This document shows, piece by piece, positions 11,853-46,779 of a stretch of 64,000 bases of DNA. Every line of letters starts with the position of its first letter. Position 1 is the first letter of the stretch. The notes beneath the pieces were generated by a model. The model saw only the letters and a list, made by a program, of their open reading frames with translations, did not search any database and was not told the origin of the DNA. A program made the translations under genes and the position numbers. The DNA is taken from assembly GCF_036855935.1 (NCBI RefSeq), contig NZ_JASPFK010000001.1:1089501-1153500 (forward strand), read 5' to 3'. This stretch comes from Sphingomonas sp. LR60 (GTDB taxonomy: Bacteria > Pseudomonadota > Alphaproteobacteria > Sphingomonadales > Sphingomonadaceae).

Positions 11853-13685
11853 CTACCGGTCCGGCTCGCGGATCAGCCGGATCGCCTTCACGTCGCCCAC
11901 CTGACCCGCGGGCAGGCCGACCGAGTGGAGCGACAGCCAGGCGGTGGCCGTCGGCAGGTCGAGATATCCCAGCTCGCCTCGAGCCCAGCGCCGTTCGGGC
12001 ACCTCGTCGGTGGGATAGGTGCGCCGACCCCATGACGCCGTAGACGGAGGTGCCAGCGGCAGTATCGCGGATGCGCTCGCATTGGCGAACGAGGCGACCA
12101 TGCGCGGTCCCGTCGTACCGCCGGCGGTCGCATAGCTGACGCTCACCCGGTACCGGCCCGGCCTGCTCACCCGGACCAGCCAACGCATCGAGGCCGATGT
12201 GTCGGTCCAGCGATCGACCCAGTCGTGCGCCCATCCCCAATCGCCATGATAGTGGATGCCGCTGCCGTACAGGCTCGCCTCGTTGGCGGGCAGCTCGGTC
12301 ATTTCGTGGCCCGGCAGCCCTAGTTGCACCGGCTGCACGGCGCTCGCCCCCGACGATGCGTCGGCGTACCAGGCGAGATAGGCCGCCTTCATCGCGGCGA
12401 GGCGCGCCGGATCCTTGCTGGAGGCGTTTAGCGCCTGCGACGGATCGGCGATGACGTCGTACAAGGCCCAGCCCGCATCGGGCGTGAAGGTCGCAAGCCA
12501 GCGCCCCTGCCGAACCGCGCCGGGCGAGCTCTGGATGGCGACCTCGTCCGGTCGCCGCGTGTTGCGTAGCTGATGCGTGAACAGATACCGCGTGTCCCAA
12601 TCGCCACCGGCCGATCTTCCCGTCAACATGGGGACGAGCGACTTGCCGTCGATGGCGGGGCCAGGCGGCGGGGTAATACCCGCCAGTTCCATCAGCGTCG
12701 GATAGATGTCGATGTGCTGGGCGGGCGTAGCGATCCTAGTGCCGCCGGCCAGGTGCCCCGGCCAGCACATAACGAACGGCACCCTCGTGCCGCCCTCGTC
12801 GACGCTTCCCTTCGATCCCGTCAGCCCGGCATTGTAGCGTTGTTTCTTGTCGGGATAGACGGGTCCATTATCCGACAGATACACGACGATCGTGTCGTCC
12901 TGCTGCCCCTTCGCGCGGACGGCGTTCAGGATGCGCCCGACATTGTGATCGAAATCCTCGACGAGGGCGTAGATCGACGCGGTGGCGTCGTCCAACCCCG
13001 CCGTCTTGTATCGCCCCAGCAAGTTTGGCTTGGCCTCGTAGGGCGAGTGGGGCGCCGGCAGCGGCACATAGAGGAAGTACGGCTTGTCGCCGCTTTGCTC
13101 GACGTAGCGCACTGCGCGATCGGCGAGGATGTCAGTCAAATACCCCCGTGCGACATAGCGCCGCTCGCCCCGGACGAGCGCCGGGTTCCAGTAATTGAGG
13201 TGGCCATCGACAAAGCCGTCGAACGTCTGGAAACCCTGGCCAACCGGATCCGACGGGAAATGCGCGCCATTGTGCCATTTGCCGAACGCCGCCGTCGCAT
13301 AGCCGTTCGCCGCAAACGCTTCCGCCATCGTGACCTCGGACGGCCGCATGGCCTCGCCACCGCGCGTCACGCTCCACACACCGGTCCGCAACGATGCCCG
13401 CCCGGTCAGGATACTGGCGCGACTGGGCGCACACACGGGACTGACGTGGAATTGGTCCAGCGTCACGCCGCGCCGGCTGAGCGCATCGAGTACCGGCGTG
13501 CGGATGGCCTTGTTGCCGTTGAAGCCAACATCGCCGAACCCCTGATCATCGGCGACGATCAGGATGACGTTGGGGCGCCGCGCCTCTTTAGCTTTCGCGG
13601 CCAGATCAGGCCGCGCGACGACGTGCGGCACGGTCCCGACCTGCACGATTAGCGACGCCGACGCTAAGGCAAGCCACGATCGCAT
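11853..13685 (-). CDS. Formylglycine-dependent sulfatase (exported)
   Basis: A 610-residue sulfatase. The ATG at 13685 is preferred over the open-frame start at 13751, because it begins a signal peptide (MRSWLALASASLIV) and follows AAAGGGCGAG. The metal-binding DDQG is at residues 46-49 and the sulfatase signature is CAPSR at 85-89, with C85 the residue converted to formylglycine. Later conserved blocks SDNGP and GTRVP are present. The C-terminal 150 residues form an extra beta-rich domain of unknown role. The gene lies 135 bp downstream of its predicted maturase on the same strand, so substrate release and enzyme activation are probably co-expressed. Confidence 0.9.
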   Translation of the reverse strand: MRSWLALASASLIVQVGTVPHVVARPDLAAKAKEARRPNVILIVADDQGFGDVGFNGNKAIRTPVLDALSRRGVTLDQFHVSPVCAPSRASILTGRASLRTGVWSVTRGGEAMRPSEVTMAEAFAANGYATAAFGKWHNGAHFPSDPVGQGFQTFDGFVDGHLNYWNPALVRGERRYVARGYLTDILADRAVRYVEQSGDKPYFLYVPLPAPHSPYEAKPNLLGRYKTAGLDDATASIYALVEDFDHNVGRILNAVRAKGQQDDTIVVYLSDNGPVYPDKKQRYNAGLTGSKGSVDEGGTRVPFVMCWPGHLAGGTRIATPAQHIDIYPTLMELAGITPPPGPAIDGKSLVPMLTGRSAGGDWDTRYLFTHQLRNTRRPDEVAIQSSPGAVRQGRWLATFTPDAGWALYDVIADPSQALNASSKDPARLAAMKAAYLAWYADASSGASAVQPVQLGLPGHEMTELPANEASLYGSGIHYHGDWGWAHDWVDRWTDTSASMRWLVRVSRPGRYRVSVSYATAGGTTGPRMVASFANASASAILPLAPPSTASWGRRTYPTDEVPERRWARGELGYLDLPTATAWLSLHSVGLPAGQVGDVKAIRLIREPDR

Positions 13686-13820
13686 TTTTCTCGCCCTTTC
13701 ATGATGTAGCTCGGCCCTCGTCTGGTGCAGCCTAGAGCGATCCCCCACCATCGCAACGCCGATCGGCTAATATGGGCAGAACTTAGTGCTGATCTATACC
13801 GGGTTCGTTGCTCGCGACGG

Positions 13821-14734
13821 TCAGACGCGAACGACGCAGCGAAAGCCGATGTGCCCAGTCGAGGTGTCGATCGTCTGCGCCTGGCGCGCGGCCGGCCTGT
13901 AGCGCTGGCAATAGGTGGCGGCGCAAAGATGCGATCCGCCCTTCAGCACCTTGCGACCCAGCAGGGAGCTGCCGTCGCGATCCACGCTGTCGCGCTCGCG
14001 ACCACGCCGCGGGTCGGTGGGCAGGCCGCAGCATCCCTTGGCCCTGCGCCGCCCGCTTGGGGTCGGCCGTACCAGTCGGCTGTCCACTCCCACACGTTGC
14101 CGATCATGTCGTGGAGGCCATAGCCGTTGGCGGGAAAGGCCTTAACCGGCGACGTCCGTTCATAGCCGTCGAGGAGCTGGTTCGCGAATGGAAACAGGCC
14201 TTGCCAATAGTTCGCCATCATCACGCCGTCGGGCGCCAGCGTATCGCCCCATGCATAATCCGCGTCCTCGAGCCCGCCACGGGCGGCATATTCCCATTCC
14301 GCTTCGGTCGGCAGCTCTTTGCCGGCCCATCGGGCGTAGGCGAGGGCATCGGCAAACGCGACATGTACGACGGGATGGTCGCCCAGGTCCTCGATCCCGC
14401 TGTCCGGTCCCGTCGGATGCCGCCAGTCGGCGCCGGTAACGAAATGCCACCACAGCGAGGGATCGTCGGTAGGCACGGGTGCATCGGTCCGCTGAAATAC
14501 CAACGATCCCGCATCGATCGGTTTGCTGTTGAATGCTGGGCAGTGGGTCACGTCCGGCGCAAGCTCCGCCATCGTCACGTGCCCCGTTGCGCTGACGAAG
14601 CGGGCAAACGCTTCGTTGGTTACAGGCACCTCGTCTATCCAAAACTCTTCGACTTGGGCTTCATGGACCGGTGCCTCTTCAGGATAGAAGCGGTCCGATC
14701 CCATCTTGAAGCTTCGTGTCGGTAATCTCCTCAT
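13821..14734 (-). CDS. Formylglycine-generating enzyme (sulfatase maturase), frameshifted
   Basis: FGE/SUMF1-type enzyme that oxidises the sulfatase cysteine to formylglycine. It begins [16 protein letters not shown] and continues through [27 protein letters not shown] and [14 protein letters not shown], all FGE landmarks. The C-terminal part, [16 protein letters not shown] to [14 protein letters not shown] with the catalytic cysteine pair (C-x4-C), is in another frame. The frame changes at about 14045-14065, where one base appears missing from a G run. With one added base the protein would have about 305 residues, normal for the family. The ATG at 14734 sits directly after AAGGGG; an earlier ATG at 14782 is possible. 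Probably functional if the indel is a sequencing error. Confidence 0.8.
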
Positions 14735-28347: not shown

Positions 28348-29580
28348 GCGGGCAGCCTTCCTGCGGCGTCCTCGTCGCGACGGGCAGCGGGTTCAGCAGG
28401 AGCCGTGACGATCCTCTCGATGATCGTGCGCGCGATGAACGACACGACCGGCGCGACCACGCCGTCGCCCATCAGCTGGAAGGCATGCTGGTACCGCACG
28501 GGCAGTGGATAGTCCGACGGCAGGCCCATCAGGGTAGCCGCCTCGCGAGGCGAGAGCAGCCTCGTCCTGACCAGGTCGCCGTCCACGACCACGATCTCGC
28601 GGCCGCGAAGCGCCACCGCGCGGAGTGCGCAGGCATCCGAGGGTCGGCCCGAAAGCGATTTCAGCACACTGCACGTTACCGTCCCCGTCGGGGCGAGGCC
28701 GCATGCGCAGATATAGGCTGCCGACCATCGGACGACCTGCCTCGCGGGCGAGAGCGAGCCGAGCCCTGTGCGCAGGAGGCATCATGGCCAGCAGGCGTCG
28801 GGTCTCCTCCTCGGGATGCCAGTCCGCGGCATCGGAAAGGTCGAGCGCGTCGGCCAAGGCGCTCTCCGGCGGCTCCGGGGCCTCGCCCAGCGTCCACCAA
28901 CGCCACCTCTCGGATGCCGCCGGGGACAGCAGTGCGCGCGCGGTCGCGATCGCGGGATTGTGCCAGGGCCGCACCGGTGCGTCGACCTGGAGGTCGGCGG
29001 GAACGGACAGATCCCCCCGGGCGGCTATGACGAACACCCGCGGTCGCGACTGCGCGACGAAAAGCTTCGCGTCCACCGTGACCGCACCGAACGCGTAGCC
29101 GAGCTTGGCCAGCGCCTCACAAACGGCGGCGAAGTCGCGCCCGCCGTTTGACGATAGCAGACCAGGCACGTTCTCCAAAACGATGACAGAGGGATGTCGC
29201 GCCTCGAGCTTCAGGTCGGCCATCAGGTCCATGAACGGCCACAGCGCGCTGGATCGCGTCGCGCGATCATCGGAAGATCCGACGCCACGGCCCGCGCCGG
29301 CCACCGACAGGTCTTGGCACGGGAAGGAGGCCCAAGCGAGGTGGGCCTCCGCTGGCAGGTCTTCCACCCGCACGTCATCAATGTTCCGCTCGTCCAGCTC
29401 ACCATCGCCCCAACTTGCCCGATAAGCTGCAGCCTTGAGCGCGCTGTTGTCGTTCGCGAACGAGCACGACCAGCGAGCGCCCAGGCCCACACGCGCCATG
29501 CCGCCGCCCGCGAAGAACTCGTAAAACGTGAGTGGGGCTTCCGACCCTTTGATCAAATCCGCCCCCACTCGCTCCAGCAT
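28344..29580 (-). CDS. druM: DruM-like C5-cytosine DNA methyltransferase (frameshifted near C-terminus)
   Basis: About 412 residues. Motif I FFAGGGMA (from residue 22), motif IV FPCQDLS with nucleophile C88, motif VI LENVPG (E136) and motif VIII QSRPRV are all present. The C-terminal motifs IX-X, LLSPREAATLMGLPSDYP and QLMGDGVVAPVV, lie in another frame, reached by a one-base shift at about 28649 in a C run. It is the first gene of the minus-strand operon; the 55-160 bp upstream must hold the promoter. The methylase would mark host DNA so that the rest of the system spares it; that role is an inference from Druantia type II and R-M logic. Confidence 0.85.
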
Positions 29581-29689: not shown

Positions 29690-30200
29690 GAAAATCGCGT
29701 GCGGTGATCTGCGCCGTTGGCACCCAGAGATCGGCGCGAAGGTCGTGGCCTACGGCTTCGCCGATCTGGATGTTGGGGAGGCGGACGCCGATGCCGACGT
29801 CGCCCGACCGATCTCCCGATATCTTTACAGGTCTGCGGCACTGATCACCGACATCGAGCCGGAAGACAGGTCGCGCGGACGGCCATGGCCGTTCTTCCGG
29901 GTGGATCGCGACTGGCCGGGCGGCATGAGCGGCGGTCCCGTGGTCAACGCAGGCGGCCACGTGGTTGGCGTCGTCAGCACGGGCATGACCGTCATGAGCA
30001 GTGGCGAACCGCAGAGCCTGTACGGCACCGGCAACACGATCTGGCGCCTCAACCAGCATTCCTGCCGAACACCGGCTGACGAAGCCTTGGTTCAACGACG
30101 CAAGCAGAAAAAAGGAACGTTAATGAACGACCGGTTTGGGGAAGCTACTAGGTCGGCCTCAGTGTCCGCAACTGGGTCAAATTGGCTGTTGGGCCGATGA
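29690..30200 (+). pseudogene. Truncated trypsin-like serine protease
   Basis: Only the C-terminal half of a chymotrypsin-fold protease: KVVAYGFADL, then DWPGGMSGGPVVNAGG with the nucleophile serine in GMSGGP and HVVGVVSTG. The His/Asp half is missing; upstream the frame reaches the promoter region of druM without a credible start. It lies divergent to the Druantia operon and may be debris from the insertion of that island, or the end of a protease gene broken by it. Confidence 0.6.
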
Positions 30201-31653: not shown

Positions 31654-32781
31654 TTACAGCTTCACGAGCGGTGGCGGCGCACCATGGGTTTCGAGTGCGT
31701 GCTCCCAAAGAAGGTGGATCACGTCGGCACGATCCAGCCAGCCACGACGCTGCTTTGCGTTAGACGCGCGCACGATGGATGGTGCGAGTGCTTGCCGCAG
31801 GATCGCCTCGCTCAGTCCCGCGGCGGAATAGACCTTCTGCACAGGCGTCAGCACACCGAGCTGAAACTCAACAAGGGCGCGCTGACGCCGGCTGGCGCGC
31901 CAGCGCTCTTTGCCAATCGCCAACGCTTTCTCATTCGCGTTACGCTGCAGGGTCTTGGGCGCTCGGACGAACTTCTCAACCATGGCGCGAATGTCCGCCG
32001 CTGTGGGGTTTTCACAGACTTCAGTCGGCAGCTCGGGACGGTGCGACGGAATCGATGAGGGTTGCTGCGCGCGGGTGCGAGTGCCGGGGTAGCTGGTGGC
32101 TGCGTTCACGAACTCCACAAATAACGACACAACGCTGCACGCCACCGCGAAAGCTTCGTCTTCTGCGATAGGCAACGCCAACGTCGTCACAGCTCGGCTG
32201 ATCGAATGAGGCTGGCGCTTTTTAAAGCTATTAGCCGGCTTGCGCGCTTTTGACATGTCCAAAACCAAGCGGCGGGCAGATGCGTCGCATTCTTGCGCGC
32301 ACGTGAGCATCACTCCGATCTTCTTGAGCGGATTGATCTCATTCAGCGCCTGCAAGCGGGCAGCGACCTCCTCAACGAACTCGAGCTCTGTCCGTACTGC
32401 CCCGGTCGCGGCGTAGGTCAGAATGGGCTCGCTCATGCCCCTGAGGTTCGAAACGATTTCCTGCTCCTTGGGACGCCCGCTGAAGATCCGTTGAAGGATC
32501 GGCGCGTTGCGCTTGCGCTTAGTGACCTTGTTGTTGTCGTCGAGTTGCGGGTTTGCCTTGCGCGAGCTGTAGCCCATCTCAGCACCCCCACGTGTGGTGG
32601 AGCGCTGGATGAAAGCGTCGATGCTCGATGCGAGGATCAGGCGACGGCGCCCAATCCGGATGGTGTCGAGCTCATTCCGCGACAGGAGCGCGTAGAGGGT
32701 GGTTTTGCCGACGCCCATTATCCTGTGAGCTTCACCAATCGACAGGGCCTTCGGGGTGAGTCCAGATACTTCAGATTTCAT
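31654..32781 (-). CDS. Helix-turn-helix DNA-binding protein, unknown function
   Basis: A 375-residue protein. The first 55 residues form an excisionase/MerR-like helix-turn-helix (LSIGEAHRIMGVGKTTLYALL) ending in RRLILASSIDAFIQ. The remaining 320 residues are mostly helical and unrecognised. It lies 143 bp after the 240-residue gene and just before a strong terminator. Together with the HUH candidate this resembles the replication or control region of a mobile element or plasmid, but no specific family can be named. Confidence 0.6.
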   Translation of the reverse strand: MKSEVSGLTPKALSIGEAHRIMGVGKTTLYALLSRNELDTIRIGRRRLILASSIDAFIQRSTTRGGAEMGYSSRKANPQLDDNNKVTKRKRNAPILQRIFSGRPKEQEIVSNLRGMSEPILTYAATGAVRTELEFVEEVAARLQALNEINPLKKIGVMLTCAQECDASARRLVLDMSKARKPANSFKKRQPHSISRAVTTLALPIAEDEAFAVACSVVSLFVEFVNAATSYPGTRTRAQQPSSIPSHRPELPTEVCENPTAADIRAMVEKFVRAPKTLQRNANEKALAIGKERWRASRRQRALVEFQLGVLTPVQKVYSAAGLSEAILRQALAPSIVRASNAKQRRGWLDRADVIHLLWEHALETHGAPPPLVKL

Positions 32782-34698: not shown

Positions 34699-34715
34699 TG
34701 GTGACCCCTACGGGA
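34699..34715 (+). repeat. attL: tRNA-Glu 3'-end copy
   Basis: Seventeen bases identical to 46705-46721. Immediately left of it is a small hairpin, AGCC-ATTGAAAA-GGCT (34684-34699), which would have been the terminator of the tRNA before insertion. Confidence 0.8.
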
Positions 34716-34825
34716 GCAATCAACGACTAAGAATAAGACTAAGAAAAACAAGGAAGCGTTGTTTTTCCTCGCGTTAGGTCGGATCACTGCGAGACATTGG
34801 TGTGAGATTCGTGCTTCGGAGGAAA

Positions 34826-36565
34826 ATGACTGCTACCCTGCCATACATTCGTGATCGCGACGGGGTGTTCCAATATGAGCGGCGCGTGCCCCTTGCCGTT
34901 CGTAGAGACGATCGTCGCTTCCAAGAGCGCTTCGGCGGTCGTGAGCTATTCCGTCGTTCACTTCGAACAAAGGATCGCGCCGAAGCGCTCGCCGCGTATC
35001 AGGCCGTTGATCGCGAGTTTGAATCGTTGGTTGCTTGTCCGCCGCCCGTGCTATCTTTAACCTTGGTGGCGCGAGCAGCCCCGAAACGAACTGTGACAAA
35101 TGACGACCTTGCAGCGATCACTGATCGCTACGCCTCGGTCACGTCTGATCCTTTCGAAAACCTGCACCGACGCGCGGGTGTCTGTCCCGCGTCAGCGGAG
35201 GAATTGGAGCGCTTGCAATATGAGTTAGAGGTATACGGCGAGCAGATCGGCGCTGCTATTCGCTCGCGAGTGTCCAACCCAAATGCCTTTGCTACGACGC
35301 CGGTAGATGAAGCGGACAAACTAATTGCCGAGCAGGGGTATCACGCACCGCCGGGAAGTGACGAGCGAGGGGCAATCATCGGTGCCATTCGCGCGGGGCT
35401 GGAACAGGGCTATAAGCGCGTTTCTGCGCTGGCGCAGGGAGCGATAGGGCCCACCCTGCCATCGCCTGTAGCCTCCCCAAAAACGCTGAATGTGCTGACG
35501 CTACGTGAAGGCGTGGAGACATACATAAAGGGTAAGAAGCTGTCTGTTAAGGGAATTAGCGAAGTTCAGTTAGCGCTTAGGCAATTCGAGGAAGTGGTCG
35601 GTCGGAAATCTATTGCCGCTATTGTTCGTGAAGACGCGTTCAAATTTGTAACGGCACTTGGCAAGTTGACCGTGGGTGGCAAATCCGACGGCAGCATCGT
35701 TAGAAAGCTGTCGCATGGTAGCATCAGCAAACGCATTAGAATGCTAGGAGCGGTCATCAGCTACTTGCGGGATCGTGGAGAATATGTCGGTGAAAATCAT
35801 CTCGCTGATGTAAAGCTAAGTGCCCATCTTCCTGCCGTTGACAAAGTGATCATGCCAGATAAGCGGCGGTTACAAACGTCTGAACTGAATGAGGTATTCA
35901 AGCATCCGTGGTTTTCGGGGTGCGCGTCAGCAAGTGACGTATATTCGAAAGGTAATTATCGCCTGAACGACCGTAGATTTTGGGTGCCTATCGTTGCCCT
36001 GTTTACGGGTTGCCGTGCGGCTGAACTTGGCGGGCTTCTCGTAAGTGAGGTACGGCTTGACGATTTGCATCCCCATATCGTCATTCAGCCAAATCGATAT
36101 CGCACGATCAAAAACAATAAGCGGCGATGCGTCCCGATCCTTGACGCGCTCTTCGATCTTGGTTTCCGCGAATACGTGATGTCTATTCGGGGCAGGGGGC
36201 ATGATCGGCTATTTCCCGATTGGACGGCCAGCAAACGAAAAGGGAGTGCGGAAAGTGACGATCCGGCGTGGTCGAACGCATCCATTATCAGGGCATTCAA
36301 TAGGCAGGTAATACCGACTACGCTAAAGCATGTTCTTTCGCCAAATGCTCGCCGTGAAGTAAGCTTTCACTCGCTACGTGGAGCGTTCAAGGCGATGCTC
36401 GTTGCGGGCCATAATATTTCGTTGCCGATAGCCAATGATATTGTTGGACATGCGCAAGACGAATTGGATGCTCGTTACATCGGCGCGCTTAGCATCGAGG
36501 AAACCTACCCAAAGGTAAAGTCCTGCTTCTATAAAGGACTGATGCTGCCTACGTCGCCAATATGA
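34826..36565 (+). CDS. Tyrosine recombinase (integrase)
   Basis: A 579-residue integrase. ATG 34826 has an excellent GGAGG ribosome-binding site 3 bp upstream of the AAA before it; the frame reaches 34802. The N-terminal part (FQYERRVPLAVRR, LFRRSLRTKDRAEALA) is the short domain common in proteobacterial island integrases. The catalytic domain shows Arg I in FTGCRAAEL, Lys in RYRTIKNNK, HxxR in FHSLRGAF, the second His in IVGHAQDELDARY and a late tyrosine. It stands next to attL and should catalyse integration and excision at tRNA-Glu. Confidence 0.92.
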   Translation: MTATLPYIRDRDGVFQYERRVPLAVRRDDRRFQERFGGRELFRRSLRTKDRAEALAAYQAVDREFESLVACPPPVLSLTLVARAAPKRTVTNDDLAAITDRYASVTSDPFENLHRRAGVCPASAEELERLQYELEVYGEQIGAAIRSRVSNPNAFATTPVDEADKLIAEQGYHAPPGSDERGAIIGAIRAGLEQGYKRVSALAQGAIGPTLPSPVASPKTLNVLTLREGVETYIKGKKLSVKGISEVQLALRQFEEVVGRKSIAAIVREDAFKFVTALGKLTVGGKSDGSIVRKLSHGSISKRIRMLGAVISYLRDRGEYVGENHLADVKLSAHLPAVDKVIMPDKRRLQTSELNEVFKHPWFSGCASASDVYSKGNYRLNDRRFWVPIVALFTGCRAAELGGLLVSEVRLDDLHPHIVIQPNRYRTIKNNKRRCVPILDALFDLGFREYVMSIRGRGHDRLFPDWTASKRKGSAESDDPAWSNASIIRAFNRQVIPTTLKHVLSPNARREVSFHSLRGAFKAMLVAGHNISLPIANDIVGHAQDELDARYIGALSIEETYPKVKSCFYKGLMLPTSPI

Positions 36566-37119
36566 CGTAGGCAAATTCTGTGGGGCGTTGGGCGTGCCAT
36601 TGTAACCGTTCCTTTGGACGGCATAACCTTACGCTCGGCGATGATTGGCATCCCAGCCATCGGAGCGCCCATTTCTGGCCTGTAGGAGCGCGTCGGAGTG
36701 TGAAGGCGGAATTGTGGTGGTGCTAGTCGCTTGCCCCCATCCTGCCCCTCCTAGGCCCTCCATATGGCGTTGGTGAGGATTGCGGTTTCGCGCGCGTAAA
36801 AGGCTTCAACGATCATTTTGGACGAGTGTCAGCGTAATCAATCGTCACCAGTAAATCAAAGGGATACAACAAGCCGCATTTAAATAGCGCGGATTCTAGT
36901 AAATATCAGCCACTTATCTGGCGCTTAAATGCGGTAGTCACTAAATATATCTTAATATTACTAAATAACAGGGTCTTTCGGTCCAGTTCTAAACCGGACA
37001 CATAGGCTACCATTCCGCAATTATCCATGAAATGGTTTCCCTATATGCCTTCCCTTTTTCCCTCCTTCCCCCTCTCTCTTTCGTTCTATTTCTTCTATAA
37101 TAAGTTTTATACCTTTGAT
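36566..37119. other. A+T-rich non-coding region with repeats; candidate origin or control region
   Basis: No gene in about 550 bp. It contains an inverted pair, CCGCATTTAAATAGCGC (36874-36890) and GCGCTTAAATGCGG (36921-36934), and four related short motifs of the form A(C/G)TAAAT(A/C) near 36849, 36899, 36940 and 36960. A pyrimidine-rich tract runs from about 37045 to 37095 just before the polymerase-like gene. Position next to a replication-type gene suggests an origin or promoter complex; this is inference. Confidence 0.4.
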
Positions 37120-38421
37120 GTGAATAGTCAGAGGGGTCGACACCTAAGGCTTATAAGCCAAGCAGTAAGTGATGTAGCTATTCGTCTTCTAGACGATCTA
37201 TCTAAAAAGGTCGCAGCAAGAACCTTCAAGGTTTATAAACCAAGCAAACCATTCATGAAGGCTTTGGGAGCATTCGTATCTGACTTGCTCGATATCGCTT
37301 CTAGCGACGAGATTGATTACGGCTATCATAGCGTCAGCCAAAAGGCCTTCACCGGCGAGGAGGTAGGACAGAAGCCGTTCGTCTCGGTGGTCAATGGCAT
37401 GTTGGCCCTGAATCTCATCGTGAGAGTCAAGGGGTTCAAGGAGCATACCGGTCCAAACGCCAAGGCCGAGGCGACACGCTTCTGGCCGACAGCCAAGCTA
37501 CTGAAATTAGCAGCGGCCTATGGGATCACGCCAGCAAACAGGGGTTTGCACTTTGGCTTCATGCCACGGCCAGCTTCCATACCGCAGCCCGTCACGTTGA
37601 AGAGCGCCCGGACATTCACACGCGATCCGCAGCCGATGCCCATTCGGCCCGGTGATACGAAGGCGACCGCCATCGCCGCACAGGTCAACGACCTAAACGC
37701 GTTTTTTGCCAAGCAGGTGATCGAACCGAATAAGCACTACGGTTTCGTGCGCATGTTTGCCAACGGTGATCGACCCGACTTCGATTGGGATCAGGGCGGA
37801 AGGCTCTACTCGGTTGGGTTCGACAATTACCAACAGCTACCCGGCAAGCCGAGGGAGGGAGAACCGATTAGCCGAGCAGGTATCCGCATCAACGGTGAAA
37901 CCACGGTGGAGTTGGATATCAAGGCAAGCCACCTGACGATCCTACACGCCATGATGAAGGTGCCGCTACCAGGCCGCACCGATCCCTACGGTATTGAAGG
38001 ATACGACCGGGCGGTTATCAAGACGTTCGTAACAATGACGCTTGGCTATGATCGCTTCCATAAGGATTGGACTAAGGATGCAATAGACACATTCAGAAAG
38101 AAGAGCGTGTCATCGTATAATCCGGATGGATTAGCCTTAACGGCCTTTTCATTCAACGACGTTAAGGAGGCAACGCTAGACAACTTGACTATCCTAAAAG
38201 GTTGGAAGGATAGCCATATTCGATGGGGCGACCTTCAATATTTGGAGAGCGAGGTAATAATCGCTACTATCAGCGAGCTAGCTTTCAAGTACGGTATTGC
38301 CGCACTCCCGGTTCATGACTCCATCATTGTGCCGGTATCGGCAAGAGAGCTAGCTATTCAGGTTCTAAAACAGAAATTTGAAGAGCTAATTGGTCTAACG
38401 CCAACGATAGAGGCAAAATGA
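37120..38421 (+). CDS. Compact family-A DNA-polymerase-like protein
   Basis: A 433-residue protein (GTG 37120; the frame runs up to 37027 through a low-complexity, Phe/Ser-rich stretch that is unlikely to be translated). Three polymerase landmarks occur in order: GGRLYS...NYQQLP (227-241) then VELDIKASHLTILHAM (motif A, D266), RAVIKTFVTMTLGY (motif B/O-helix, R298, K301, Y310), and LPVHDSIIV (motif C, H399-D400). These parallel PolA and T7-RNA-polymerase signatures (GRL...NLQNIP, DYSQIELR, R...K...YG, HDE/HDS). No 3'-5' exonuclease domain; the N-terminal 200 residues are unassigned. It overlaps the next small frame by ATGA. Likely a replication or priming enzyme of the element. Confidence 0.55.
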   Translation: MNSQRGRHLRLISQAVSDVAIRLLDDLSKKVAARTFKVYKPSKPFMKALGAFVSDLLDIASSDEIDYGYHSVSQKAFTGEEVGQKPFVSVVNGMLALNLIVRVKGFKEHTGPNAKAEATRFWPTAKLLKLAAAYGITPANRGLHFGFMPRPASIPQPVTLKSARTFTRDPQPMPIRPGDTKATAIAAQVNDLNAFFAKQVIEPNKHYGFVRMFANGDRPDFDWDQGGRLYSVGFDNYQQLPGKPREGEPISRAGIRINGETTVELDIKASHLTILHAMMKVPLPGRTDPYGIEGYDRAVIKTFVTMTLGYDRFHKDWTKDAIDTFRKKSVSSYNPDGLALTAFSFNDVKEATLDNLTILKGWKDSHIRWGDLQYLESEVIIATISELAFKYGIAALPVHDSIIVPVSARELAIQVLKQKFEELIGLTPTIEAK

Positions 38422-38495
38422 CTAAGCTCACACAACAGATAATTTCAAGTAAAATTTGTGAATGGACAGGTAAGGCCGGGGAGCGCTGTCGCTAA
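38418..38495 (+). CDS. Possible small protein or broken gene start
   Basis: A 25-codon frame (MTKLTQQIISSKICEWTG) starting in the ATGA overlap with the polymerase-like gene. It ends abruptly after a GGGG run, and the adjacent frame then carries KTSHVHHLPVPICAV, so the two could be one small Cys/His-rich protein split by an indel. Too short for a firm call. Confidence 0.25.
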   Translation: MTKLTQQIISSKICEWTGKAGERCR

Positions 38496-38623
38496 GACTT
38501 CGCATGTTCACCACCTGCCTGTTCCAATTTGCGCTGTACGAGGCTCTGCGGGCAAAATAGAGCATATTGCCGCAAAGGGTCGCAGTTGGCCCGCTATGGC
38601 GAAGGCCGGATCAAGGAGGGGTC

Positions 38624-39018
38624 ATGAAAACAGAAGCCCATTACGAACGCCTAGCGAGTACCTGTCGGGCAATCGTAGCCTCCCCCAAGTTACGCAATTT
38701 GTAGTCGGCATCACAACCAACCCATCGGCTCGCCGTCAGAGCTACAAGCGTTGGGCGGAAAATCATGAGAATGGTCCCGGAAAGCTAGATGGATTTGTCA
38801 TTCTTGATTGGGGGTACAGCCAAGACGATATTCGTGCGGTTGAAGAGTATCTCTTCAATGCCTTGGTAGATCATGACAATTACGGGGTCATTGATATGAG
38901 GTACAAGCCGTCCGTATACAAGAAGGGACCGAAGGCTGATGATCAATCAATCTATATTGCTTGGTGGTCACCCTACCTAGTTATATCAGATCAATTCATG
39001 TCTGACGACGATCAATAG
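38624..39018 (+). CDS. Small GIY-YIG-like protein (frameshifted)
   Basis: A strong GGAGGGG ribosome-binding site precedes ATG 38624 (MKTEAHYERLASTCRAIVASP). That frame stops early, but changing frame at the C5 run at 38682-38686 continues into FVVGITTNPSARRQSYKRW and IRAVEEYLFNAL to the stop at 39018. The block resembles the GIY-YIG nuclease start (YYIGIT...R...YK) with a later conserved Glu, though the Tyr residues are partly replaced. An alternative is a longer protein in the downstream frame from 38458. Nuclease activity is unproven. Confidence 0.4.
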
Positions 39019-39038
39019 CTCATTCAAGGATTCAGGTG

Positions 39039-39650
39039 ATGAACGACGATGAGTTTCAGTTGCGTTGTGACGAGTTGGCAACAAGCTACCTAGATCACGT
39101 TCTTCTAATTCTCCGAGTCAACGATCGGGGAGCGAATCTCCGCGACTTTCTCGATCCGTGGTGGAGCTTCAATAAGGGGGAGCCTTTTATCGGCGGCCGG
39201 AAGAATGGAAATTTGTCGCAGCGGACTCTAAACAATCCGTGTGCATGTGGCTGCGGGAATATAGATAAATCGCTCGGAAACAGACTTCTTTATCTGGATT
39301 GGATTTCGGTCGGAGCGCAAAAGGCGCTTTCCCGCCGCGTCTGCAAAAACAAAATCGAGCAGCGTGATCCACACGACCGTCTGATTGTTGAACATTCCGT
39401 CCCCTTCGCGTACATTGTAAATACCCTTTTCGCAGCGCGCGAGACGTGGGATCGAAATAGTTTGCATCAGTTCTTGATCGCTAACTTTAAGCGAGCGTTG
39501 ATAACGAGAGAAGAGGATGCTCTTCTCGATGGCTATCAAAATGGACGGTCTTTAACAGCGAATATGCCAATTGGGTGGAATGTTGGCTCTGATCCTTATT
39601 CCCGATATCAAGAGCGCGGCATTATCGAGCACAGGCAGGAGCTTCACTAA
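39039..39650 (+). CDS. Hypothetical protein with possible zinc/HNH-like motif
   Basis: A 203-residue protein; ATG 39039 follows AAGGA. It contains a compact cysteine cluster, NPCACGCGN, and later LIVEHSVPFAYIV, an arrangement like the Cys knuckle plus EH..P of some HNH nucleases, but no full HNH consensus. It is 20 bp after the GIY-YIG-like gene on the same strand and probably co-transcribed with it and the polymerase-like gene. Confidence 0.5.
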   Translation: MNDDEFQLRCDELATSYLDHVLLILRVNDRGANLRDFLDPWWSFNKGEPFIGGRKNGNLSQRTLNNPCACGCGNIDKSLGNRLLYLDWISVGAQKALSRRVCKNKIEQRDPHDRLIVEHSVPFAYIVNTLFAARETWDRNSLHQFLIANFKRALITREEDALLDGYQNGRSLTANMPIGWNVGSDPYSRYQERGIIEHRQELH

Positions 39651-40811: not shown

Positions 40812-41354
40812 TCAGGCCGCGCCGAGCGCCCGGTAAACGCTAGCGCGAGCAATGCCGAGCTTAGTGGCAATATCGACCGGGCGGACGCCTTCCGCTTTGA
40901 GCGCCCGCACCGCTCCCGCATCTACCGTAGGCTTGCGGCCCTTGTAGCGCCCATCTGCCTTTGCCTTGGCGATTCCTTCCGCCTGACGCTCCTTGCGAAT
41001 GGCGGTTTCAAACTGCGCGAAGACGCCAAGCATTTGCAGGAACGCGACGCCCGCCGGTGACGACGTGTCGATAGGCTGCTCGATGGCTTTCAGGTATGCG
41101 CCCTTGCGCTTGATGGTCGCGACGATCGTTTCCAAATCGCCGACGGATCGCGCCAGACGGTCAATACGGCTGACTAGGAGCGTGTCACCCTCCCGGATGA
41201 AATCCAACGCATCGGCGAGCGCCTTGCGGTTGTCGGTGCTGGTGCCGCTCTCTTTTTCCGCAAATAGCTTTTCGCACCCGGCAGCTTTGAGGGCGTCGAA
41301 CTGAACGTCGAGCGATTGCCCCGCCGACGACACCCTTGCGTAACCTACCAGCAT
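40812..41354 (-). CDS. Serine recombinase (resolvase/invertase family)
   Basis: A 180-residue small serine recombinase. ATG 41354 starts MLVGYARVSSAGQS with the catalytic serine in RVSS; SRIDRLARS is the conserved arginine block, and FAQFETAIRKERQAEGI leads into a C-terminal helix-turn-helix (VRPVDIATKLGIARASVYRAL). Its promoter region holds a 10-bp inverted repeat enclosing a CCGTTTAAACGG palindrome, a plausible recombination site. It could resolve dimers of the element or invert a segment. Confidence 0.92.
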   Translation of the reverse strand: MLVGYARVSSAGQSLDVQFDALKAAGCEKLFAEKESGTSTDNRKALADALDFIREGDTLLVSRIDRLARSVGDLETIVATIKRKGAYLKAIEQPIDTSSPAGVAFLQMLGVFAQFETAIRKERQAEGIAKAKADGRYKGRKPTVDAGAVRALKAEGVRPVDIATKLGIARASVYRALGAA

Positions 41355-41365
41355 GACCACGCTCC

Positions 41366-41431
41366 GTCTCAATAGAGTCTAGATAATGCGAGTCATACGT
41401 CCCGTTTAAACGGAGTCAACCCTATTGAGAC
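41366..41431. repeat. Inverted repeat with central palindrome; possible resolvase site
   Basis: GTCTCAATAG at 41366-41375 and CTATTGAGAC at 41422-41431 are perfect inverted arms; between them is the 12-bp palindrome CCGTTTAAACGG (41402-41413). It sits 12 bp upstream of the serine recombinase start, the usual place for a res site or autoregulatory operator. Confidence 0.5.
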
Positions 41432-41520: not shown

Positions 41521-41596
41521 ATGCGCTCTTAGTCGCCCTTGTCATCGATTATGTTATCGTTAGCGTGTGATTGCGACACGTCGATTAAGGCTGACT

Positions 41597-43231
41597 ATGA
41601 CAATCCCAATCGTTGAGGTTCAACGCCAGGCGGCATTACATACTAGCCGTATATTCAGTGTCCCAAGCTCTAGCGCTCCAATCGCGCTGCCTGTCTCTAG
41701 CGGGAAGGTGTCCTTAGTCATCGGCCCAAACGGCGCCGGCAAATCTGCCTTCGCTCACTTGATTTACAAAAGTCTACCGCAAGGGCTGGCAGAATTTTTT
41801 CCAGGGCATCGGCAAATTTATTTTAGCAGCGATCATTTTGACTTTTTGGGCCAGCCGATCGACCAACTTCATGCTAACCTTTACGATCAAGGTCAGGTTT
41901 CAAATCGGTTTAGGTCGGCCTGGTCGGAGGATCACCTAAAAAGTGTCTTAAAGCGGCTTACAAATGACGAATTTCAATATGTGTGGGATATTGCAGAGAG
42001 CGCACAAAGCTATGCACCTATTGGATCAGAAAAGGGGCCTTTATCGGTCCTAAATTCAATCTTTAAGTCAGTGGATTTACCAGTAACTTTTACCATTGAA
42101 GCTGGACAACTGCGCGCGACTCGGGATGGCGGATCGACCTATGCCATTGATCGACTTTCAGACGGAGAGCGAGCGGCACTTCTCCTGGTGGCCGCGATTA
42201 TCGTGCAACCGATCAACCATACGGTTGTCATCGATGAACCTGAAAAGCATCTGCACGGTGCAATTGCCGGTCCTTTGATTGCTGCTGCCGTTCGTGCGCG
42301 GCTCGACCTGGCTTATGTTTTTACAACCCACGCGCTTAGCCTGATTGAGGCACTTAAGCCGGATCAAATACTGCATGTAAGAAGTTCACAAGTTGTCGGT
42401 CCTAATGACGAGCGCAACTTTGACGCTCACTTGATGACAGGCCAGGATGGATTGCCGGATGATGTGAAGGCGTCCATTGCGGGGTCAAGAAAGAAGCTAC
42501 TGTTTGTTGAGGGTACTGCATCATCTGATGATCTAGCGCTATACACGCTGTTATACCCACAATGGAGTATCGCCCCGAAAGGCGGGGCAGATACTGTAAT
42601 TTCAAATGTTCGCGCCGTTGCATCAAACGGTCAGTTCACTTGGCTTGAGTCACGCGGTATTATCGATCTTGACGGCAGAAATCAGCAGGAAGTCGCGGCG
42701 CTTCAAGCAGATGGTATTCACGCTCTTCTAGTTCCGACGATCGAAAATGTTTTTTGCCTTAAAGAGGTTATAGAGGTAGCAGCGGACGTTTTCTCAAGTC
42801 TTTCGGGCGGCTCTGATCCCCAGGCCGTTATGAGCAGAATAACAGCGGCGCTTCCCGCCCTCTTTATGCATGAGCGAGCAAACTTCATTGCGCGGCGAAC
42901 ATTGTGGATTGTAAATCGCCAGGTGTCTGCGACAAAGCTATCTGTTGCTGGATTAAAGAATGGAGTATTTAAAGTTGATGCTGTAGATGCAGGGGCAACG
43001 TTCGATGCCGTTTCAGCCGATATAGATCGTCTGATTGCCGGTAACCCATTTGCAGCATTATCGCTTTTGCCAATCAAGAATACGTCTATTCTCAAAAGAA
43101 TAGCTGCTGAAGCGGGATATCCCACAGTTTCTTTATACAAAAATACTATATTACATCAGATTGCAACTGGAAGCTCTCATGGGAATAAAATGAAAGAGGC
43201 TATGTACAACTACCTGCCAGTGCTATCCTGA
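41597..43231 (+). CDS. AAA/ABC ATPase fused to TOPRIM-like (DUF4435) domain; candidate defence protein
   Basis: A 544-residue protein (ATG 41597). The N-terminal 300 residues are an SMC/ABC-type ATPase: Walker A GPNGAGKS (43-50), signature-like LSDGERAALL, Walker B VVIDEPEKHLH and switch FTTHAL. The C-terminal 240 residues begin KKLLFVEGTASSDDLALY and contain GIIDLDGR, the Glu and Asp-x-Asp of a TOPRIM/DUF4435 fold. This pairing occurs in OLD-family nucleases and in PARIS, where AriA (ATPase) and AriB (DUF4435) can be one fused protein; the total is short for a typical fused AriAB. It lies divergent to a recombinase inside a mobile element, a common place for defence cargo. Confidence 0.7.
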   Translation: MTIPIVEVQRQAALHTSRIFSVPSSSAPIALPVSSGKVSLVIGPNGAGKSAFAHLIYKSLPQGLAEFFPGHRQIYFSSDHFDFLGQPIDQLHANLYDQGQVSNRFRSAWSEDHLKSVLKRLTNDEFQYVWDIAESAQSYAPIGSEKGPLSVLNSIFKSVDLPVTFTIEAGQLRATRDGGSTYAIDRLSDGERAALLLVAAIIVQPINHTVVIDEPEKHLHGAIAGPLIAAAVRARLDLAYVFTTHALSLIEALKPDQILHVRSSQVVGPNDERNFDAHLMTGQDGLPDDVKASIAGSRKKLLFVEGTASSDDLALYTLLYPQWSIAPKGGADTVISNVRAVASNGQFTWLESRGIIDLDGRNQQEVAALQADGIHALLVPTIENVFCLKEVIEVAADVFSSLSGGSDPQAVMSRITAALPALFMHERANFIARRTLWIVNRQVSATKLSVAGLKNGVFKVDAVDAGATFDAVSADIDRLIAGNPFAALSLLPIKNTSILKRIAAEAGYPTVSLYKNTILHQIATGSSHGNKMKEAMYNYLPVLS

Positions 43232-43574: not shown

Positions 43575-44318
43575 TCAGCTGTTTTTAGTTCTCGTAAGTG
43601 CGGCGTTCAGGTCGGGGAGGGACAAGGGCGTCCTCTGGCGATGTGCCATACGATGACAGCTAGCGCATAGCAGCGCCAAGTCCACCAGCTTAGTCTTACT
43701 CACTGTTACGAGCGTGTGGACAGGCTTTACATGGTGAACTTCTATATAGCCCGCACCAATGTCGCCATAGACTGCTTCGTAGTCGAAGCCGCATACCTCA
43801 CAAGCCAGCGCACCAATCGCCGCCGCCGCTTTCCGCTTTTCCGCGATAAGCTTGGGATCGCGCTCATATCGCTTATGTAGCCGCATGATGACGCCACCCT
43901 CTTCCCCCTCGTACGGTTCGGCAGGGGGTAACTTGGCTACGGTCGCTTCGTCGGCAGCGTTGACGGTATCGCGTATGACCGTGGCGGCGGCGGCTAGACC
44001 AGTCCTGTCATTCTCGTATTCGGCCCACACGACCTTTTCGAGTTTGCCCCCGGATTGCATCCCGACCTTGCCTAGCACGGTAAAGGCAGGGTCCAGCGCC
44101 CTTAGGTTCATCATCTTAAGGTAGACGCCGTTCTCATTTCGCAGCGTAGGAGCCGCTGTGACGCCGTTTAGCCGATGCATCTTATTCAAGATGGCGGATA
44201 GCTCCGCAACGGTCGTGCTGCCCTTTCCCGGCGGACTGACGGGGTTCGTCATGTACAGGTCGAGCGCGAGAATGAGTTCGTCGTGCGACCATGCCGGGTT
44301 GCGGAGTGGCTTCATCAT
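43575..44318 (-). CDS. HNH endonuclease
   Basis: A 247-residue protein. The C-terminal HNH domain is complete: CEVCGFDYEAVYG, then IEVHHVKPVH and LALLCASCHRMAHR, with four zinc cysteines and the His/Asn-type active site. The N-terminal 130 residues start NPAWSHDELILALDLY, a segment that often precedes HNH domains in restriction-type proteins. It is the second of two minus-strand genes enclosed by the 51-bp repeats. Likely a restriction or homing nuclease; specificity unknown. Confidence 0.85.
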   Translation of the reverse strand: MMKPLRNPAWSHDELILALDLYMTNPVSPPGKGSTTVAELSAILNKMHRLNGVTAAPTLRNENGVYLKMMNLRALDPAFTVLGKVGMQSGGKLEKVVWAEYENDRTGLAAAATVIRDTVNAADEATVAKLPPAEPYEGEEGGVIMRLHKRYERDPKLIAEKRKAAAAIGALACEVCGFDYEAVYGDIGAGYIEVHHVKPVHTLVTVSKTKLVDLALLCASCHRMAHRQRTPLSLPDLNAALTRTKNS

Positions 44319-44362: not shown

Positions 44363-44884
44363 TTACGCGTCTACCGACCAGACCTGCACCCCACCTTGCT
44401 CAAGCTCGGCCCGCCGCTCGATGCCGGGGTATGCCGGAGAAGCGAAGAACACGTATCGGTACCGCTCGGATCGCGCGACCAGCTTAGCTAGGTCGCTTGC
44501 CAGCTTACGGTTGTTGCGCGGGTGGACTGCGGCGAACGTTTCAGCGCCCACCAAGCCCTCTTCCATACTCATTATGTCGAGCGGCCGGGACATATGAGCG
44601 CCCGGAGCAAGCACAAAGCCTCCTGCATCGGGGTGAAGGTCGAGAAGCACCCGCGTAGCCGCCAGCGCTACGGCGTAGGTGAAAGTTTGATTGATCTGCT
44701 CAATGACGTTCAAGCCCCGATCTGCGATCGGGTGGAAGCCGACCGCCTCGAATTTGAGGGAGCGCAACAGGTCCATCGAGTCACCGCTGTGTGCCGTTAT
44801 CCAAGCTTGCGTTCGATCCGCTGCGCTCCGTAGGGTCAACAAGTGACGCTCCACGTCCTGAACCGTTTCAACGATAAGCTCCAA
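44363..44884 (-). CDS. Hypothetical protein, partner of HNH gene
   Basis: A 173-residue soluble protein, 44 bp upstream of the HNH gene on the same strand. It reads as a folded alpha/beta protein (FTYAVALAATRVLLDLHPDAGG, RYVFFASPAYPGIERRAELEQ, VQVWSVDA) whose final strand pattern is like a nuclease or restriction-fold tail. No motif is firm enough to name a family. Confidence 0.5.
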   Translation of the reverse strand: MELIVETVQDVERHLLTLRSAADRTQAWITAHSGDSMDLLRSLKFEAVGFHPIADRGLNVIEQINQTFTYAVALAATRVLLDLHPDAGGFVLAPGAHMSRPLDIMSMEEGLVGAETFAAVHPRNNRKLASDLAKLVARSERYRYVFFASPAYPGIERRAELEQGGVQVWSVDA

Positions 44885-45118: not shown

Positions 45119-46018
45119 ATGACGAGTGTTTGGCGGCTTCGCATGAAGTCGGGGCAGGAAGGTGTGAAGCATGAGGCTGCGAAGGCGTTTGCGCTGACAG
45201 AAGGGTGGGTAGGGTCGGGATGGGGCCTAAACGGCAGCGACTACGCCGATCAGATCAAAGATGGGTGTACGGACGTGCAAACCTACCTTGCGCTTGCCGC
45301 TCATCGTTTCCCACAGGACGCAAGTCTCGCAAAGGCGGCGAAGGCGATAGCGGTAGAAATGGCGAGCGGGGATATTTGCTGGACCTATGATCCGCGTAAA
45401 GGAGAATATTGGTGCGGAAAAGTCACCGGCGACTTCGTCTACCGTCAAGGCGGAATGTTCGATGAGTATGACCTTCACCTGCTGCGACCTTGCCGATGGG
45501 CTTTAGCGGGAACCGCTGATGCGATACCGGGAGCCGTTCGCCGAGGATTTGCAGGGCCGTTCGGAGCAGTAACGCAACTAACCACCGATAAAGAGCGAAT
45601 CATCAACGCGGCCCGTTATGCCCTCGGAGAGCCTAACGTTGAAATTTTCGGCGACCTGTTTGAGGCTGCTAGCCCCGAAGATTTAGAGGACTTAGTCGCA
45701 CTGTTCCTGCAAGATCACGGTTGGCGCTTGCTGCCAAGCACCTCAAAAACTTCAATGGCTAGTTATGAATTTGTTGTGGTTGAGAGTAAATCCGGGCGAC
45801 GGGCGGGTGTTCAGGTCAAGAGCGGAAATGTTAGCTACTTGGAACAAGCCGTTGCCGAAGATTTTGATTCGTTCTTTGTTTTTCTCGCGGGTAAAAATCC
45901 ACGGATCATTGGCGACCACAAGGCGGAAATAATAGACCGCGAGAACTTGAGGAGGTTCGCATTGAACAATCTAGCCATAATCCCCAAGAGGTTGGCTGCG
46001 GTTTGGGCGGTGAGCTAG
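45119..46018 (+). CDS. Putative PD-(D/E)XK-type nuclease
   Basis: A 299-residue protein; ATG 45119 follows GAGGGGAAGGGGG. The N-terminal part (VKHEAAKAFALTEGWVGSGWG) is unassigned. The C-terminal part has the layout of a restriction-endonuclease fold: EDLVALFLQDHGWRLLPS, then YEFVVVESKSG and AGVQVKSGNVSYLE, where the Asp/Glu and the Q-x-K take the places of the catalytic triad, and SFFVFLAG as the following strand. This matches Mrr-like and related variants. Probably another restriction or defence gene of the element. Confidence 0.6.
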   Translation: MTSVWRLRMKSGQEGVKHEAAKAFALTEGWVGSGWGLNGSDYADQIKDGCTDVQTYLALAAHRFPQDASLAKAAKAIAVEMASGDICWTYDPRKGEYWCGKVTGDFVYRQGGMFDEYDLHLLRPCRWALAGTADAIPGAVRRGFAGPFGAVTQLTTDKERIINAARYALGEPNVEIFGDLFEAASPEDLEDLVALFLQDHGWRLLPSTSKTSMASYEFVVVESKSGRRAGVQVKSGNVSYLEQAVAEDFDSFFVFLAGKNPRIIGDHKAEIIDRENLRRFALNNLAIIPKRLAAVWAVS

Positions 46019-46047: not shown

Positions 46048-46632
46048 TTACGCCACGCGACGTTGCCTGGTCAGGAGCTTCAAATCCCACCAACAGTATA
46101 GCTCTTTCTCCTCGATGCGGCCTTGTTGGTGCAGCCAACGACCTAGTTCAACGACTGATTTCCATCTAGGCCGAAGAACGTTCTCCGTTTGTTGCCAAGC
46201 TGTTATGAACGCGTCGACCAACGGGCCGTCATCAAGCCAACGAAGGCGCAGCATGATTTTGGCTGCATCCTCATCAGGAGTAGGAGCTAAGCGACCGCTG
46301 GCAAGCCCCTCCGCAAGGTAGTGAGCGGCGAAAAGCCTATCTGCCTCACTCTGCCTCCTAAATCGACGTTCGGCGATCGGACCAGCGAGCAATTCAATGG
46401 TGTCCAGTCGCGCTGCCTCAACAAGATCGACTGCGACGCTGGGCTTGGCATAATGGTGACCGAACGCTGGTTGAAAGCGCGCTTGCGAAGCGGTGAATCC
46501 TAGCTGACCGTTCGGCTGCTCGATGATCGACAGGGACTCAATATTCCGCCGACATGCGTTCGCCATGATCGCAACGGCATGTCCGGCTTCATGGACAGCA
46601 ACATACAGGGGGATACCTCGCGGCATTATCAT
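46048..46632 (-). CDS. Stand-alone M41-like zinc metallopeptidase
   Basis: A 194-residue protein with the zinc-binding HEAGHAVA motif near its start (VHEAGHAVAIMA) and a downstream acidic helix (DTIELLAGPIAERRF), as in the peptidase domain of FtsH, but without an AAA domain or membrane anchor. Small M41-like proteins are found on mobile elements, sometimes as regulators that cleave repressors. It is the last gene before attR. Start at 46632 or 46626. Confidence 0.65.
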   Translation of the reverse strand: MIMPRGIPLYVAVHEAGHAVAIMANACRRNIESLSIIEQPNGQLGFTASQARFQPAFGHHYAKPSVAVDLVEAARLDTIELLAGPIAERRFRRQSEADRLFAAHYLAEGLASGRLAPTPDEDAAKIMLRLRWLDDGPLVDAFITAWQQTENVLRPRWKSVVELGRWLHQQGRIEEKELYCWWDLKLLTRQRRVA

Positions 46633-46704
46633 CCATTGTGATGCGAGACAAAACTGTGAGACAATCTCGCTAACAGACCATCTAAGTCATTGAAAAACTT
46701 AGCA

Positions 46705-46779
46705 TGGTGACCCCTACGGGAATCGAACCCGTGCTTCAGCCGTGAAAGGGCCGCGTCCTAACCGCTAGACGAAGGGGCC
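46705..46779 (-). tRNA. tRNA-Glu (anticodon TTC)
   Basis: Seventy-five bases on the minus strand including an encoded CCA. The acceptor stem pairs GGCCCCT with AGGGGTC (one G-T pair), the anticodon loop is CTTTCAC giving TTC, and the T arm is GGGTTCGATTCCC. Its last 17 bases form attR of the integrative element, so the gene remains functional after insertion. Confidence 0.95.

Follow-up and report, generated by a model that had tools for sequence, protein, structure and literature searches.

A 12.0-kb island in a 64,000-nucleotide stretch of the Sphingomonas sp. LR60 genome (NZ_JASPFK010000001.1, positions 1,089,501 to 1,153,500; hereafter the window) encodes a very small protein that is almost certainly a mini family-A polymerase of the TV-Pol (divPolA2-like) group, and its gene is likely responsible for the replication of a small integrative element that targets a tRNA gene. 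The open reading frame (ORF) lies on the plus strand and runs to a stop at 38421, either from an ATG at 37027 (464 residues) or from a GTG at 37120 (433 residues). A preliminary description of the shorter frame, made from the DNA letters alone, had picked out four peptides resembling PolA/T7 RNA polymerase motifs (GRLYS...NYQQLP, two more, and VHDSI), and all four were found in that frame in the order claimed. It had also rightly called the protein very small, and devoid of an exonuclease domain. The latter agrees with the length of 433 residues, with the lack of any Pfam family at E values up to 1 and with a search using the N-terminal domain alone, in which the rows shown contained no exonuclease.

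A protein search in which 7,998 candidates were scored returned 525 proteins, including that of the window, at E ≤ 1e-3, and the ORF is therefore not a chance reading frame. Among 120 relatives listed, nearly all were unnamed or annotated as "hypothetical protein", and one UniRef label started with "DNA-directed DNA polymerase f" (P0060). The models for DNA polymerase I (PF00476) and for single-subunit RNA polymerase (PF00940) matched neither the window protein nor a 44-sequence alignment of the family (A1) at E values up to 1. The window protein had no PDB sequence match at E up to 10, no PADLOC match at E up to 0.01, and a single PHROG match, phrog_4756 (function unassigned, E 4.2e-24).

The assignment to the polymerases comes from the predicted structure, which had a predicted local distance difference test (pLDDT) value of 93.8 and a predicted template modelling score (pTM) of 0.90. 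In this confident model, residues 147-433 form a palm and fingers of the family-A/single-subunit RNA polymerase (RNAP) type. The family-A-like character proposed earlier is thus borne out by a prediction that contains a palm domain. Foldseek ranked family-A DNA polymerases first, and the modelled palm and fingers could be overlaid on PolA as well as on single-subunit RNAP; as read from this overlay, not from measured distances, the catalytic aspartates appear clustered in space. In a search of viral folds, the "DNA polymerase" of Rheinheimera phage Barba31A (435 residues) came at rank 4 (E 1.6e-19, TM score 0.49). A proof of kinship to PolA or T7-like RNAP by sequence profiles was tried and had to be abandoned: PDB sequences gave no match, and hhalign scores stayed below significance. 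The latter test was a weak one, as the control pair of PolA and RNAP scored nothing either and the targets were narrow (13 PolA and 19 T7-like RNAP rows); moreover, three of the 12 host PolA frames used (L080, L083, L084) lack the HDE motif, are possibly wrong frames, and were kept in. The evidence for kinship is the structural match. The N-terminal domain in front of the polymerase core is also kept in the family: 60 or more of the 70 relatives had letters in at least 120 of its 146 columns.

To describe the active site, we used a 71-row alignment of the window protein and 70 relatives (loci) next to the separate 44-row alignment A1, counting rows that have a letter at the respective position. 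The catalytic Arg, Asp, RxxxK, and HD motifs, listed in Table 1, hardly vary across the 71 sequences. The hairpin arginine R228 sits in strand 226-231 of the predicted model, R252 was arginine in 69/69 rows, and the fingers aspartate D288 was retained in 65/70. The motif A aspartate D266 was found in 43 of the 44 rows of A1, with one tyrosine. The residue following the motif C aspartate was serine in 48, alanine in 21 and glycine in one of 70 rows and never glutamate. The resemblance of motif C to single-subunit RNA polymerases that had been pointed out before is therefore real: HDS occurs in 48/70 rows, and T7-like RNAPs share HDS. Position 271, which falls on the steric-gate glutamate of PolA when motif A is laid on DYSQIELR, was never glutamate in 70 rows; it was histidine in 41, glycine and tyrosine in six each, glutamine in five, phenylalanine in four, serine in two and one of six other residues in one row each. 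With HDE and the steric-gate glutamate each in 0/70 rows and no PF00476 match, the family differs from DNA polymerase I in these traits. The distance between motifs A and B had been described as unusually short, correctly so because the 35 residues from the motif A aspartate to the motif B lysine are the smallest value of the four polymerases compared (47 in T7 DNA polymerase, 53 in the host PolA L074, and 94 in T7 RNAP). From the motif A to the motif C aspartate the corresponding distances are 134 residues here and 179, 178, and 275 in T7 DNA polymerase, the host PolA L074, and T7 RNAP. In a further host PolA (L082), the search pattern did not match a motif B, and this protein is absent from the comparison.

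These features also bear on the possibility that the protein is a single-subunit RNA polymerase, which would transcribe the genes of the element or make RNA primers at a site bound by the N-terminal domain. Besides the HDS motif, the modelled overlay of palm and fingers and a similar motif B are shared with the T7-like and mitochondrial enzymes. The window protein, however, has half the length of single-subunit RNAPs and a far tighter motif spacing, alignment A1 gave no Pfam RNA_pol match, and Foldseek favoured DNA polymerases. Position 271 is histidine or aromatic in 52/70 rows and glycine in six, whereas T7 RNAP has a glycine (motif A DGSCSGIQ). Aromatic residues serve as the steric gate in some other families of DNA polymerases. 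CcPol, a relative that has been tested, is reported to use dNTPs much better than NTPs (Bebel, 2020; PMC7581432). We therefore regard an RNA polymerase as an unlikely alternative to a family-A DNA polymerase.

Among known families, the TV-Pols offer the closest description. The preliminary description had suggested a new type of polymerase; this does not hold, because the protein is covered by the TV-Pol family of Iyer, Abhiman and Aravind, whose motifs and types of neighbors, as described in 2008, agree with those found here (PMC2579912). TV-Pols are PolA/T7-RNAP-like proteins of 400-600 residues from mobile elements, many of them alphaproteobacterial. They have an absolutely conserved hairpin arginine, two palm aspartates, a fingers aspartate with RxxxK, and a two-helix antiparallel thumb module, and they lack a nuclease domain. 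A subset with an extra N-terminal domain neighbors gamma-delta resolvases, lambda-type integrases or transposases, and a combined primase and polymerase activity was predicted for the family (Iyer et al., 2008; PMC2579912). The window protein and its relatives agree in size, in the minimal PolA/T7-RNAP core without nuclease, in the extra N-terminal domain that some TV-Pols have, in both palm aspartates (D266 in 69/69 and D400 in 70/70 rows), and in the hairpin arginine and the fingers aspartate with RxxxK; they also agree in their location on mobile elements with resolvase and integrase (both in 23 of 29 elements here) and restriction-modification genes nearby. They differ in three respects: the N-terminal domain is modelled here as a winged-helix-like alpha/beta domain, tRNA target sites are unmentioned in the main text of that paper and our islands lie at tRNA genes, and the D5 helicase to which other TV-Pols are linked is missing in most genomes searched here. 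What is new compared with the published work is the island boundaries, the winged-helix-like N-terminal domain, the lack of the PolA glutamate at the steric gate, and the absence of the D5 helicase in 21/24 genomes.

When Microcystis phage Ma-LMM01 was searched over its first 50 kb, the best ORF was gp030, which lies beside transposases and ranked ahead of the PolA and RNAP controls. Against the profile of the 71-row alignment it reached E 4.5e-4 over 51 columns only, and against profile A3 E 0.011, which is below inclusion; a search of the whole record with profile A3 found nothing, and no HD motif C was visible when gp030 was aligned to the family. We infer from its neighbors that gp030 is the TV-Pol to which PMC2579912 refers; the sequence link from the family to a carrier named there is thus weak. 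The divPolA2 proteins of phages are likewise described as having an active-looking palm, no exonuclease, and an N-terminal globular domain for which the authors detected no similarity; structural matches to DNA polymerases and mitochondrial RNAP are given, and a role as repair DNA polymerase or RNAP is left open (Yutin et al., 2024; PMC11348598). The small PolA-like palm without exonuclease, the N-terminal domain, and the fold match to the barbavirus protein connect the window polymerase to divPolA2, which, as far as that account goes, is a phage-borne accessory gene, whereas the window polymerase is island-borne together with integrase and resolvase.

The polymerase had been proposed to be encoded by a small integrative element, and the delimitation of the island agrees with this. 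Its ends are marked by a 17-bp direct repeat of the tRNA-Glu 3′ end, and the integrase gene at the left end starts 103 bp inside the left copy. Even when up to three mismatches were allowed, the attachment (att) core occurred just twice in the window. A 611-bp query from the tRNA-Glu/recJ side matched 61/61 genomes of the genus (the own genome included; some by the tRNA or a short part only). A clean empty site was not shown by the comparison with three relatives, of 11 with loci returned from 60 searched, as their other flank matches neither the flank of the window nor the sequence that lies beyond the outer att copy. The outer copy is a 47-bp copy of the tRNA-Glu 3′ end on the same contig, 42.7 kb left of the window (G000:C1:1046842-1046888). 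Because of this copy, a second, tandem island of about 77 kb may lie outside the 12-kb one and contain window positions 1-34698. Genes for a C-5 DNA methyltransferase (28393-29580, minus strand) and an HTH_17 protein (31654-32781, minus strand), as well as a possible trypsin-like fragment below the cut-off (29745-30200, plus strand), lie outside the 12-kb island and perhaps belong to the outer one.

Table 1. Features of the 12.0-kb island and of its polymerase gene (positions in the window).
Feature	Position	Strand	Evidence or remark
att copy, left end (17-bp tRNA-Glu 3′-end repeat)	34699-34715	.	exact repeat of 46705-46721
Tyrosine recombinase (integrase), DUF6538 + Phage_integrase	34802-36565	+	PF20172 E 4e-8, PF00589 E 2.7e-6, phrog_1 E 6.7e-22
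TV-Pol/divPolA2-type mini family-A polymerase gene	37027-38421	+	464 aa from ATG; 433 aa from GTG 37120
Pyrimidine-rich tract before polymerase core	37036-37096	+	inside 464-aa frame, upstream of 433-aa frame; strongest such tract of the element
Winged-helix-like part of N-terminal domain (residues about 40-136 of 433), predicted	37237-37527	+	
Palm and fingers, polymerase core (residues 147-433), predicted	37558-38418	+	
R228, hairpin arginine	37801-37803	+	R in 68/68 rows; 44/44 in A1
Motif A, D266 to H271	37915-37932	+	D266 is D in 69/69 rows; H271 at steric-gate position
Motif B, R297xxxK301	38008-38022	+	R 68/71, K 71/71
Motif C, H399-D400-S401	38314-38322	+	H and D in 70/70 rows
ORF of unassigned function directly 3′ of polymerase	38458-39018	+	no Pfam match at E up to 1; without relatives in other loci
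ORF of unassigned function	39036-39650	+	no Pfam match at E up to 1
Small serine recombinase (gamma-delta resolvase type)	40812-41372	-	PF00239 E 2.9e-39; relatives in 37 loci
Cargo: AriAB (PARIS)-like ATPase-TOPRIM protein	41567-43231	+	PDLC02982 AriAB E 2.2e-47; AAA_21 E 8.5e-9, DUF4435 E 2.8e-6
Cargo: HNH endonuclease	43575-44318	-	PF01844 E 3.2e-7
Cargo: ORF without Pfam or PADLOC match	44363-44884	-	
Cargo: candidate defense protein PDC-S02	45119-46018	+	PDLC04816 E 1.7e-47; weak Mrr_cat PF04471 E 0.0064, below cut-off
Cargo: weak M41-peptidase-like stretch	46048-46632	-	PF01434 E 0.018, below cut-off
att copy, tRNA end	46705-46721	.	homology with 3/3 relatives compared stops at 46701-46705
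tRNA-Glu (ttc), target gene	46705-46779	-	

Similar islands were found around relatives of the polymerase, which were present in 64 genome loci, 5 viral contigs, 2 of 72,556 plasmid records, and 24 of 50,697 phage records; the latter, obtained by tblastn, were Vibrio, Aeromonas, and Pseudoalteromonas phages. A tRNA gene was present in 44 of 70 loci, in 41 of them with its 3′ end facing the polymerase, and 28 loci had in addition a direct repeat of at least 15 bp of the facing tRNA end beyond the polymerase. The remaining 42 loci may represent other element types, cut contigs or phages. Counting the window, 29 elements could be delimited in this way; they measure 6.7-16.4 kb, and the tRNA genes at which they lie belong to many isotypes. 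A tyrosine integrase was detected in 27 of them, a small serine resolvase in 25, both in 23, and at least one in all 29. Because the loci came from a polymerase search, the polymerase is present in every element by construction; the presence of integrase and resolvase is not. Resolvase ORFs numbered 26 inside the elements (312.5 kb) and one outside (331 kb) in the same stretches. This single ORF belongs to locus L013, where a second polymerase match and a second resolvase match lie on the other strand outside 5983-14625, perhaps as part of two tandem elements. The distribution is patchy: at E ≤ 1e-3 the polymerase was present in 25 of 296 genomes from the order, and at E ≤ 1e-30 in 16 of 397 from the family (own genome included). 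The own genome has one mini-polymerase copy and an ordinary PolA. Aeromonas phage 2L372X carries two divergent mini-polymerase copies (L191, L193), and a genome of the same genus (G008) has a second, partial PF00476 match (C2:431262-431954, E 1.5e-24, 551-residue frame) besides its PolA. No publication was recognized as describing these islands themselves in a literature search of open-licence papers.

Apart from polymerase, resolvase, integrases, and apparent antisense frames of the resolvase, no ORF cluster occurred in more than 8 of 73 loci. The cargo, surveyed as 134 other ORFs of at least 140 residues from the 29 elements, varies and, judged by sequence matches, includes anti-phage defense genes. 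Among the matches listed (25 of 74 Pfam and 25 of 396 PADLOC families), the commonest on the Pfam side were AAA_21 (5), AAA_15 (4), SMC_N (4), HNH (4), MucR (3), ResIII (3), and HNH_3 (3), followed by type I restriction-modification and Bro-N genes (2 each); the PADLOC side included AriA/AriAB, type I methyltransferase and specificity subunits, and Septu-like and Gabija-like proteins. With such cargo, the polymerase might itself be a counter-defense or abortive-infection device of a defense island instead of a replication gene. We consider this highly improbable, since integrase and resolvase accompany the polymerase while the other cargo varies, the polymerase has no PADLOC match, and relatives are present in phages.

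Gene content, element ends, the palm/fingers fold, and the catalytic residues are results of computation, from which we infer each step of the following action. At the 17-bp att core, the integrase would excise the island in circular form, and the N-terminal domain, as DNA-binding part, would hold the polymerase on the template. The polymerase would then start a new strand, i.e., prime, and extend it, with host enzymes supplying unwinding and the remaining steps; the resolvase would turn multimers into monomers before reintegration or transfer. A priming or replicative role, as suggested in the preliminary description, is thus plausible, and we lean slightly towards this mechanism of priming and copying of the excised island as a whole.

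Several observations weigh against it. The D5 helicase is the chief argument for priming in TV-Pols, yet it is mostly missing here: when 24 genomes, drawn from the window's own and 24 of the 28 other delimited loci, were searched with the D5_N model (PF08706), 21 had no match, the window's included (DUF927-type helicases were not searched). In the other three, the matching frames were, judged by open-frame lengths, not in the fetched element stretches. Since matches occurred in only 3/24 genomes and outside these stretches, the D5 helicase, as far as sequence searches tell, is not a regular partner of this island type. No gene for a partner resembling a single-stranded DNA-binding protein (SSB) and no conserved partner ORF was found at the blastp level (neighbors' folds were not predicted); homologs of MP, the partner of CcPol, are reported to diverge fast (Rice, 2023; PMC10061031). 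In six of the 29 delimited elements, the integrase or the resolvase went undetected. The assignment of the N-terminal domain as a winged helix-turn-helix (wHTH) leans on weak matches, and a biochemical test of a TV-Pol with such a domain was not found in the literature searched.

The regions upstream of the polymerase gave no origin signal either. Iteron-like repeats in the 520 bp upstream exceeded all 12 shuffles in 3 of 68 loci, with about five expected; at most four copies of a 9-mer were seen, and the window region was not above its shuffles. As no such repeats stand out upstream, no origin was identified. A pyrimidine/purine tract as a general feature of the elements was rejected as well. 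In a first set, the strongest tract lay within -420 to +30 of the polymerase core in 16 of 63 tract-bearing loci (2.6 expected by length), and upstream pyrimidine tracts with scores of at least 20 were present in 5/69 loci compared to 0/44, 0/34, 0/53, and 0/241 in controls. This enrichment was not repeated in 12 further loci, where the strongest tract was near the core in one of nine tract-bearing loci (0.97 expected). A tract of at least 22 nt precedes the core in the window and in L002, L004, L006, L008, L010, L011, and L072, and it shows up as a P/S/L/F-rich N-terminus in the proteins of close relatives (P0002, P0005, P0007, P0009, P0010). The tract is treated as limited to the closest relatives, and nothing was built on it.

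The missing helicase and the lack of a recognized partner gene would fit a primer-dependent repair or second-strand polymerase, which would act in gap filling or in converting a single-stranded intermediate of excision or transfer, with priming left to the host primase. CcPol without its partner is reported merely to extend primers (PMC7581432, PMC10061031), and barbaviruses are described as having divPolA2 alongside a regular PolB (PMC11348598). On the other hand, a host PolA is already available, yet the mini polymerase is widely kept, with its catalytic residues intact and its N-terminal domain retained across relatives. We judge such a gap-filling role improbable and prefer priming and copying of the island by the polymerase.

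In the literature seen, the A-family DNA polymerase of a mobile element that has been shown to prime is the TV-Pol CcPol with MP, which does so using dNTPs and needs both catalytic aspartates (Bebel, 2020; PMC7581432). The finding was widened to PolA-SSB primases in Bacillota, and for a second pair, from S. aureus, priming is stated on partly unpublished grounds (Rice, 2023; PMC10061031); the authors of the 2020 eLife paper knew of no other characterized TV-Pol (PMC7581432). Like the window polymerase, CcPol is an A-family polymerase of an integrative element. In contrast, CcPol-MP as described in these papers is made up of two proteins, one of them the OB-fold partner, comes with a helicase (mostly COG3378), has an exonuclease domain in part or whole, and resides on elements of Bacillota that mostly use large serine recombinases, unlike the islands here. 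A tentative idea, for which we see a modest chance, is that TV-Pols with an N-terminal domain are one-protein initiators, in which the wHTH-like domain would do the job that the OB-fold partner does for CcPol, bind the DNA of the element, and allow de novo synthesis.

In summary, the polymerase belongs to a known family and is in that sense ordinary; its value exceeds the ordinary, given how well the case is delimited. A compact single chain, a confident model, named catalytic residues, and defined element ends make the prediction of 2008 directly testable. One shared gene connects a wide range of tRNA islands, mostly from Alphaproteobacteria, and is a useful marker for them. If the one-protein reading is true, the 12-kb island would start its own copying without its own helicase, SSB or separate primase gene, and a family-A palm with a wHTH in one chain would represent a further make of primase; alternatively, if rNTPs were preferred, the protein would count as a T7-superfold RNA polymerase of exceptionally small size.
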